Assembly (NCBI GenBank): GCA_030550455.1
Contig: JAUQPH010000001.1
Location: 128,259-192,258, forward strand
Direction: 5' to 3'
Length of the DNA: 64,000 bases
From: Thermoproteota archaeon
GTDB taxonomy: Archaea > Thermoproteota > Thermoprotei_A > Sulfolobales > NBVN01
Notes under the pieces: model-generated
Database searches by the model: none
What the model saw: the letters and a program-made list of their open reading frames with translations, nothing else
Told to the model about the DNA's origin: nothing
Translations under genes and position numbers: made by a program
Shown: positions 4,703-57,701 of the stretch, piece by piece
How the letters are laid out: each line of letters starts with the position of its first letter
Numbering within the stretch: position 1 is the first letter of the stretch

Positions 4703-4720
4703 TTACGTAAACGGGGGGCT

Positions 4721-4810
4721 AGCTCTTGTGTTGGTTCACGTGTTGGTTTGTATGGGTTAACGTCATTGCCTTACTTAGCCTCCACGTTCTACTCTGGGAT
4801 TGAGCGCTAA
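4721..4810 (-). mobile_element. Solo right-end remnant of a tnpB (IS200/IS605-like) element
   Basis: Read on the minus strand, 4760-4721 gives AACCCATACAAACCAACAC, then an extra 12 bases, then AAGAGCT. This matches the end of the remnant at about 40031-40061 (AACCCATATAAACTAACAC followed by AAGAGCT), and more loosely the end of the tnpB pseudogene at 28277-28308. The extra 12 bases partly repeat AACCAACAC. Upstream (4761-4810) only weak similarity remains. The call is inferred from the shared end. Confidence 0.45.
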
Positions 4811-4961
4811 ACCAATTTAAAACTTATCATTAAAAAGAAACGTGATAACATCAGCGATCGATACAACATAGCTACCGAGGGTTCGCACCTTCCGAGTAAA
4901 GCCTCATGACTTTTAAGGTTTTAAGTTCGAAGCTTGGCCTCTAGTATGTCAGTAGATTACG

Positions 4962-28151: not shown

Positions 28152-28276
28152 ATAGCAACCTCCATCTTTATACTCCCTATGCCGTAGTTGAACTAGATTA
28201 GTCGTGATCTTCTCATAGATCGAGCACATACTGCTGTATATAGCCAAGTTAGCTACGCTTCAGTCAATAACGTGAT

Positions 28277-28771
28277 TCAGCTCTCGTTTAGGTTTATATT
28301 GGTTGGTTTCATCGCCTCGTCCTCGTTCCCCCGCATCGGTCTTGAGTTTGCATCACCCTTGGGGACGTTCGGGAGTACCCCTAGACCTCCACATCTTGAG
28401 TACCCGTAGAACAGGTCTATACATGTTACTACATTTCTATCTCCTGCTAATCCATATTTAGAGCGCTTCAGTACTCTACTACCGCCATTTTCTAATCTGC
28501 TTCCACACCTTGGACACGTTGATGATGTTCTCATCGGGTTAATGTAGCTAACCAACAGCCCTCTCTCAAGAGCTTCATAGTTCATAGCGAACTGTATTCT
28601 CCTGTAAAACCACACGGACAGCTTCTCGTTGAATAAGCTACTACCACTGACCCTGCTTCTCAGCTTGCTTAAGTTTTCGAGAACTATGGTTGAACTATGT
28701 TCATCAGCTAGCCATGAGCAACTGTTTCGTTTTTCACATCTGTTCGTATCGGTTGGTATTGATAGAAACGC
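28277..28771 (-). pseudogene. tnpB (IS200/IS605 OrfB) pseudogene between rpl15 and secY
   Basis: A frame open over most of this stretch encodes the C-terminal part of a TnpB RNA-guided nuclease: STIVLENLSKLRSRV, WFYRRIQFAMNYEALERGLL, then the zinc finger. Only the first CxxC remains (TSSTCPRCGSRL); the second pair reads VLKRSKYG instead of Cys-x-x-Cys. The RuvC-III Asp survives in GDRNVVTCID. At the upstream end RFLSI is joined almost directly to mid-protein sequence, so about a hundred codons are deleted. The tail (YSRCGGLGVLPNVPKGD, MRGNEDEA) and right end (28277-28308) match other remnants. Inactive. Confidence 0.8.
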
Positions 28772-28917
28772 TTATAAACACCTTATTATACAGTGATATA
28801 CGTAGAGGTACTTCGATGAGGGATCGAGAGCCGAATTCGTTGCTTCTAGTTACTGGATAGCTTTTAAGCTATCAGTTCACTGACTTCTAGGCAAGGAATA
28901 GGAATGGTGTGTCGTAA

Positions 28918-39814: not shown

Positions 39815-40061
39815 ATGAAGTTAAACGGTAGTAGCATCAAGCAGCTGTTTCGGGTTTCTACTGGTTTACGGTACTCGATTGATGCGTTGAGGCTACTCGA
39901 TGAGAGGAAGAGCCCCTTGGAGAGCTTTCCCCGAGTTACTCGAAATGTGGGGTGTTAGAGGTCGCCCTGAACGCCCCCATGCTCGATGAAAGCTCGAGCG
40001 AGATGCTGGGAAGAGTGTGAGGCAACGGTATCAACCCATATAAACTAACACAAGAGCTGAG
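39815..40061 (+). mobile_element. tnpB tail remnant with conserved 47-codon ORF
   Basis: Plus-oriented copy of a repeat found inverted at 57474-57701. Bases 39863-39954 are identical to 57529-57620. From ATG 39815 a 47-codon frame ends at TAG 39956-39958; its last 39 codons differ from the other copy by one residue. After the stop, weaker TnpB-tail-like sequence follows (AACGCCCCC...), and then a right end at 40031-40061 shared with 4721-4760 and 28277-28308. Probably a decayed IS200/IS605-family 3' end. Confidence 0.6.
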
Positions 40062-40074
40062 CTCATGAGGCTCG

Positions 40075-40102
40075 TCTATAACCTAAAATCTATAACCTAA
40101 AA
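40075..40102. repeat. Perfect 14-base tandem duplication
   Basis: TCTATAACCTAAAA occurs twice in direct succession (40075-40088, 40089-40102), 14 bases after the presumed right end of the adjacent transposon remnant and 91 bases before tldD. It may be a slippage product or a target-related duplication. Confidence 0.8.
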
Positions 40103-44134: not shown

Positions 44135-44204
44135 CAGTACCGCATAATAACAATTAGCAAACGGTAAAATAAGAGCTCTATGAGCTTAAGAAGGGTTTAA
44201 CTCC

Positions 44205-44345
44205 GATATAGGTTTGTGTTAGTTGATCTCATAGCCATCCCCGTTCCCCGCATTCCGCTCGGGTTTTAATCGAGCTCGGGGGCGTTCGGTATGGCCCCGG
44301 GCACGTAGCATCTCGCGTGCTTCAGGGAGGGCCCATCTCATACAT
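44205..44345 (-). mobile_element. tnpB tail remnant
   Basis: On the minus strand a frame reads AIPNAPELD, stop, then NPSGMRGTGMAM, matching the TnpB tails at 28 kb (LPNVPKGD, MRGNEDEA) and 57 kb (ASNAPEPDENLSGMR). The right end (ATCAACTAACACAAACC) resembles that at 40 kb with an internal deletion. Everything upstream of the tail is lost. It lies in the gap between the MFS and DUF401 genes. Confidence 0.55.
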
Positions 44346-44478
44346 GGACTCTAACCTCCTCGTTGGGTAGTCTCCACGTGTTTAGTCAAAGTTACTTACA
44401 AACGTTTCCACCACATTCATCAAGCAACATAAATCAATACAAAACTTGAAGTAGCTTTGAGAAGCATCATCCCTTGGT

Positions 44479-57283: not shown

Positions 57284-57473
57284 TCACCTACATACCTATG
57301 AGAAACTACATGACACCGCCTCAACACCATTAACAGAAGATATAGTAGCAGAAAGAGCATTCTTCGTAAAGGGACCTAGAGCCGTACTTCGCAGATAGTT
57401 TAGTACGGAAAGGCCGCACTCGTCTGCTCTCTTAACCGCTGCTTCAAGTACTCACATATTTGAATATATTTCT

Positions 57474-57701
57474 CCCGCATTCCGCTCAGGTTTTCATCGG
57501 GCTCGGGGGCGTTCGAGGCGACCCCTAGCACCCCACATTTCGAGTAACTCGGGGAAAGCTCTCCAAGGGGCTCTTCCTCTCATCGAGTAGCCTCAACGCA
57601 TCAATCGAGTACCGTAAACCTGTAGAAACCTGAAACAGCTGCTTGAGGCGTAGCTCGAAGTCAGTTAAATCGAGGCGTACTGGATTAGGTTGCCAAGGAA
57701 G
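57474..57701 (-). mobile_element. tnpB tail remnant, inverted copy of the 40 kb one
   Basis: Minus-strand copy of the repeat at 39836-40015. A frame open from 57701 ends at 57525-57527. It reads RLDLTDFELRLKQLFQVSTG, then LRYSIDALRLLDERK, without a normal start. In another frame the 3' part encodes YSKCGVLGVASNAPEPDENL and SGMR, the recognisable TnpB tail. Identical to the other copy over 92 bases (57529-57620). No right end like that at 40 kb is preserved. Confidence 0.6.

Follow-up and report, generated by a model that had tools for sequence, protein, structure and literature searches.

What has been conserved in two inverted copies of a short repeat whose similarity falls just after a shared stop codon? 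The window analyzed here, a 64,000-nucleotide stretch of DNA from a Thermoproteota archaeon, contains such a pair. The preliminary description favored selection on a 47-codon frame, or on an RNA ending near the stop, over simple decay of tnpB. The near-identity on which it built is real: of the 123 bases of 39836-39958, 4 differ in the reverse complement of 57525-57647 (3 without the first base), namely, as copy 1/copy 2, at 39836 A/C, 39852 G/A, 39862 T/A, and 39955 T/C. Pair comparison of the two copies also recovers the 92-base run without a difference (39863-39954) and the fall in similarity, which begins after about 39954-39955. The match is far beyond chance (blastn E = 5.8e-66), and its onset is sharp, at 39834 in one copy and 57649 in the other, the left end of the element. 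Relative to the family consensus, the part after the stop carries 10 substitutions in copy 1 and 5 in copy 2, and copy 2 lacks the right end, family similarity ending near 57470. The drop is a combination of divergence in copy 1, partly compensatory, and right-end loss in copy 2. The left-part subtype common to both window copies is rare; it is also found in copy L025. The features are listed in the table.

Table. Features of the repeat family in the window (positions are those of the window; R1 is the covariance model).
Feature	Position	Strand	Basis or remark
Solo element copy 1, without tnpB, 232 bp	39834..40065	+	End motifs common to 26 other full-length copies
Presumptive TnpB guide RNA (omegaRNA/reRNA) scaffold, corresponding to tnpB C-terminal region/right end	39929..40065	+	R1 135.5 bits, E 3.2e-34
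Predicted guide segment, DNA straight after right end	40066..40085	+	TnpB biology
47-codon frame of the preliminary description, judged no gene	39815..39958	+	Start outside element; frame not kept in other copies
Solo element copy 2	57447..57649	-	Left end 57649; R1 83.6 bits; right end lost
Third, older solo copy	44192..44465	-	RNA part 44192-44327, R1 88.9 bits; left end (about 44465) placed by weak motif match
tnpB 3' remnant, last ~148 codons, open frame	28272..28723	-	Right end/RNA 28272-28410, R1 107.2 bits
Possible very degraded copy	4714..4882	-	R1 alone, 22.3 bits, E 3.4e-4

Most copies of the family derive by internal deletion from a ~1.5-kb tnpB element, the ends of which are GCCTCACGCAACTG (left) and CAGAGCTGAACCCC (right). 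Full-length solo copies with identical end types number 27; they measure 232-289 bp, the majority 270-290 bp, and the 232-bp one is the window copy. Alignment of a solo with a tnpB element gives three blocks, the left end (1-45), the tnpB start (89-152), and the tnpB C-terminal region with the right end (157-282), the last being 95% identical between the two. In the solo, the left end with some 20 initial tnpB codons is thus fused to the final ~40 codons and the right end; missing are roughly 1 kb of tnpB and most of the stretch separating the left end from the tnpB start. Decay of tnpB, which the preliminary description ranked lower, is itself correct in part: the sequence does derive from tnpB, by internal deletion, but fixed ends and dozens of copies do not describe a random pseudogene. 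The tnpB 3' remnant in the window matches P0001, an intact TnpB with paralogues of 444-455 aa, at 64% over residues 268-415 (G000:C4:156538-156981). At about 28280-28860 of the window (L196/L052), a tnpB 3' remnant adjoins an inverted solo left-end fragment in a rearranged composite.

A sequence search of the source genome located 36 matching places, and the covariance model, built on the downstream part of the repeat, gave 88 matches at E<=0.01 and 83 at E<1e-4. Only 8 of the 83 copies adjoin tnpB or a remnant of it; about 75 (~90%) are gene-less. The tnpB genes are a handful, at least 3 of them with ORFs intact over the full length, and the TnpB protein contains a TNB domain and matches solved TnpB/Cas12f chains in sequence. 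Young solos lie at the starts of contigs C3, C7, C9, and C10 and at the end of C14; the assembly therefore probably breaks there, and the copy number may be too low. A search for solos inside coding genes produced three candidate spanning frames, none convincing: two are short, and one crosses the upstream region of a gene that, from its translation, we take to be a spermidine synthase.

No segment of the family is shared more widely than the one downstream of the stop, which contains covarying helices. The RNA reading of the preliminary description thus holds in kind but not in extent, since the presumptive RNA does not end at the stop and runs through to 40065. In tnpB-borne copies the RNA match begins about 2 bases downstream of the TNB match, and tnpB terminates 6 bases short of the right end; in some of them, the last 38-40 tnpB codons traverse the conserved segment. 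Judged by sequence, the segment has the properties expected of an omegaRNA/reRNA: it overlaps the tnpB 3' end, is predicted to end at the right end, and forms a covarying scaffold. Because the structure was chosen from a look at the first alignment, and because relatedness among the copies inflates covariation, the statistics are support rather than proof: in 34 distinct copies, 90.4% of the cells in five short helices are paired, versus 87.3 in shuffles and no more than 57.1 in slides, and 16 cells have both sides changed, versus 4.4 in shuffles. In a 78-copy alignment, which was fitted to the covariance model and leans towards it, the both-sides-changed cells number 57 versus 27.9, with 0 of 500 shuffles as high. 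A candidate pseudoknot (68-70/82-84) is 91% paired and covaries weakly. The window copy retains the terminal helix through a change from GAUG/CAUC to UGUG/CACA, and the central helix through CCG/CGG to UCG/CGA with an extra C-G pair. The tnpB frame, which is not the 47-codon frame, is broken before its usual end in 67 of 78 copies, and pair retention is equal in broken-frame (0.76) and intact-frame (0.73) copies. An Rfam search of the window returned a tRNA as the sole match.

Upstream of tnpB lies a promoter-like box, GAAAC-TTATAAA, with a counterpart in many young solos; a strict TTATAAA/TTTATAA match is present in 20 of 69 solo copies, in one of which (L187) it sits at the outer edge of the left end. 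The window subtype has no TATA-like promoter segment, and the two window copies are therefore probably relics or dependent on read-through. Recombination between copies is suggested by mosaics, among them L030 with its two joined types of central helix. Two further observations concern the left part of the family. A divergent ORF of ~47 codons (MARVEIVRCSIIKYRKKDIVLYPLGRDKEKIKHLHGKEVYVLIIAEE) on the reverse strand is conserved between the left end and tnpB, as seen in the left part of L046 (G000:C5:259000-263500), L048, L045, and L053; it has no match in Pfam or NCBIfam and is gone from the solos. The beginning of tnpB, codons 1-25, contains a hairpin sequence, GAGAGCTC...GGCTCTCCCCGAG (for example near 1880-1950 of L049, read in the direction of tnpB), which is retained in solos with variable loop lengths and is possibly an RNA element in its own right.

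The element ends, GCCTCGTG... and ...TGAACCCC, form no terminal inverted repeats, and inspection of the listed copy flanks revealed no evident target-site duplication. A classical MITE, defined by both, was accordingly rejected. The sole motif in the left flanks is A/T at -1 (28 A, 9 T, 2 C; n=39), with no clear TAM beyond it, and no empty site was recovered. A short GAAAC-T-GTTTC palindrome was found by eye in the alignment of the left end. Inspection by eye also showed a subterminal inverted repeat that could be a recombinase site: TATYGGTTG on the left-end side and its reverse complement on the right-end side, each about 35-50 bases inside the element. The Y1 (HUH) TnpA domain PF01797 is unmatched in the genome with positive controls, an absence that is uncertain at 87.8% genome completeness. 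Serine recombinase signals are present. One intact resolvase, on C3, adjoins a tnpB without the ends of the family, and in an IS607-like element (L050) the family left end is followed by a MerR-type HTH start and a tnpB; the recombinase of L050 is broken by a run of N. From the missing Y1 match, the serine recombinase signals, and the left end common to the IS607-like element, the left end being the only sequence shared, we infer that the elements probably depend on an IS607-type serine recombinase for movement in trans.

The covariance model matches in 29 of 117 related genomes (30 of 118 with the source genome), and fuller counts in five relatives range from 19 to 34 copies. The one-contig genome G057 has 27 copies, none of which adjoins a TNB-domain match, and its only tnpB close to P0001 is a fragment matching residues 18-138. 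In G116, with 34 copies, the P0001-like tnpB is a remnant with two stops. Both genomes are near-complete, and more distant TnpBs were found in both. The G057 solos keep the same RNA segment, with the left end joined at another point of tnpB (codons around VIACINLF); on the six copies inspected, they look like an independent deletion derivative. At the loci fetched from same-genus relatives, where the flanking genes are 65-74% identical, the window insertion is absent, and it therefore appears to be lineage-specific. Genome matches to P0001 are confined to Thermoproteota and Bathyarchaeota MAGs. Similar DNA was not found in phage and plasmid collections, nor a tnpB relative in viral contigs.

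Standalone guide RNAs are already known for other families. Altae-Tran 2021 reportedly describes standalone omegaRNAs of IscB/TnpB systems, that is, guide-RNA genes without an adjacent nuclease gene, and Meers 2023 is said to describe PATEs in Geobacillus. These belong to other hosts and families and, like the solos, have no adjacent nuclease gene. The PATEs of Haloquadratum walsbyi are short, gene-less, multi-copy elements that outnumber transposons and have neither terminal inverted repeats nor target duplication, some being core-deleted tnpB (IS1341/IS605-type) elements (PMC3119063). The solos resemble them in being gene-less, multi-copy, core-deleted tnpB derivatives that outnumber tnpB elements, with fixed ends and no transposase gene. 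PATEs, however, are haloarchaeal and IS605-related, have near-terminal palindromes, and were reported in 2011, when guide RNAs had not yet been discovered, whereas the solos occur in Thermoproteota, are probably of IS607 type, and carry a complete covarying guide-RNA scaffold.

In SisTnpB1 of Sulfolobus islandicus (PMC10640517) and the Halobacterium omegaRNAs (PMC12558985), the RNA overlaps the tnpB coding end and a flank-derived guide follows. The same order is found here, with the RNA at the tnpB 3' end and then the flank as predicted guide; archaeal IS200/IS605 omegaRNAs have been described beside tnpB, whereas about 90% of the present copies are without it. Sulfolobus islandicus also has SMN1, a non-autonomous element of 320 bp that depends on ISC1733; by description it is similar in size, thermophilic archaeal host, and trans mobilization, and the available part of its report describes no guide RNA (PMC3718332). 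The solos are best filed as PATE-like non-autonomous derivatives. New are the Thermoproteota host, the probable IS607 type, and the covarying guide-RNA scaffold that about 75 copies have retained.

We propose, with good though not full confidence, that the window repeats are worn members of a tnpB-derived non-autonomous family with a guide-RNA end, mobilized in trans and presumed to produce a TnpB-loaded RNA. The solos arose from a tnpB insertion sequence of ~1.5 kb that lost its interior, and an IS607-type serine recombinase would move them in trans. The flanks past the right end are different in every copy. According to established TnpB biology (PMC10640517, PMC10711439), a transcript extending beyond the right end would take its guide from the flank, so the guide of each solo RNA would be the DNA flanking that insertion, at the RNA 3' end. 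The few intact TnpB proteins may load these RNAs in trans, and loaded TnpB would cut the element-free allele, helping each solo copy to persist. Against this stand G057 and G116, which have no intact tnpB close to P0001; the RNAs there are without an obvious partner, the distant TnpBs aside. A bolder extension, which we regard as possible but rather doubtful, is that the ~75 scattered guide-RNA genes constitute a distributed repertoire of insertion-site guides that share a few TnpBs for self-defense in trans, with another partner where the close tnpB has been lost.

The strongest competitor, to which we give a little less than an even chance, is that the solos are plain MITE/PATE-like parasites in which the 3' segment is kept as the recombinase right end and the inherited RNA structure is idle. 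It fits the decay of old solos, some of which keep paired positions down to 0.25-0.5; helix upkeep could reside in the source elements alone, rather than in each solo. It also fits the many-solo genomes without an intact close tnpB, and terminal-only IS605 derivatives down to 52 bp apparently move in Haloquadratum (PMC3119063). Yet a ~130-nt RNA segment is kept here and in the G057 solos, although a 52-bp end suffices in Haloquadratum. A long recombinase-binding end could account for this retention; the TATA-like promoter retained upstream in many young copies argues the other way.

Host co-option of the RNA or DNA hairpins for a TnpB-independent role, such as that of a terminator or a regulatory RNA, would agree with copies that persist where an intact close tnpB is absent and with solos that were not found to disrupt any convincing coding gene. 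We consider it improbable, as the same-genus loci without the window insertion indicate no old, fixed host feature.

A conserved small peptide can be dismissed almost entirely: the frame is indeed open in copy 1 (translation MKLNGSSIKQLFRVSTGLRYSIDALRLLDERKSPLESFPRVTRNVGC*) and the two window copies differ little, but it is open and in register in 1 of 27 full-length copies, that of the window, the remaining 26 being interrupted by a stop or a frameshift (typically by a TAA located five codons ahead of the shared TAG), and its ATG at 39815 lies 19 bases outside the repeat. Conservation of the frame across copies, as expected of a small-protein gene, was not found, and selection on it is unsupported; the synonymous versus nonsynonymous count invoked for the window pair is uninformative with just 4 differences. 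The shared TAG is merely part of the conserved guide-RNA sequence GGGGTGCTAGGGG.

To return to the preferred reading of a trans-mobilized family with a guide-RNA end, the covariance model and the many-copy relatives make it testable. If TnpB loads the solo RNAs, gene-less parasites would be exploiting, in trans, a nuclease guided by RNA to secure their own retention. This would bear on the persistence of non-autonomous elements and on how guide-RNA genes part from their nuclease, a separation that is a step in a proposed route to CRISPR-Cas12.
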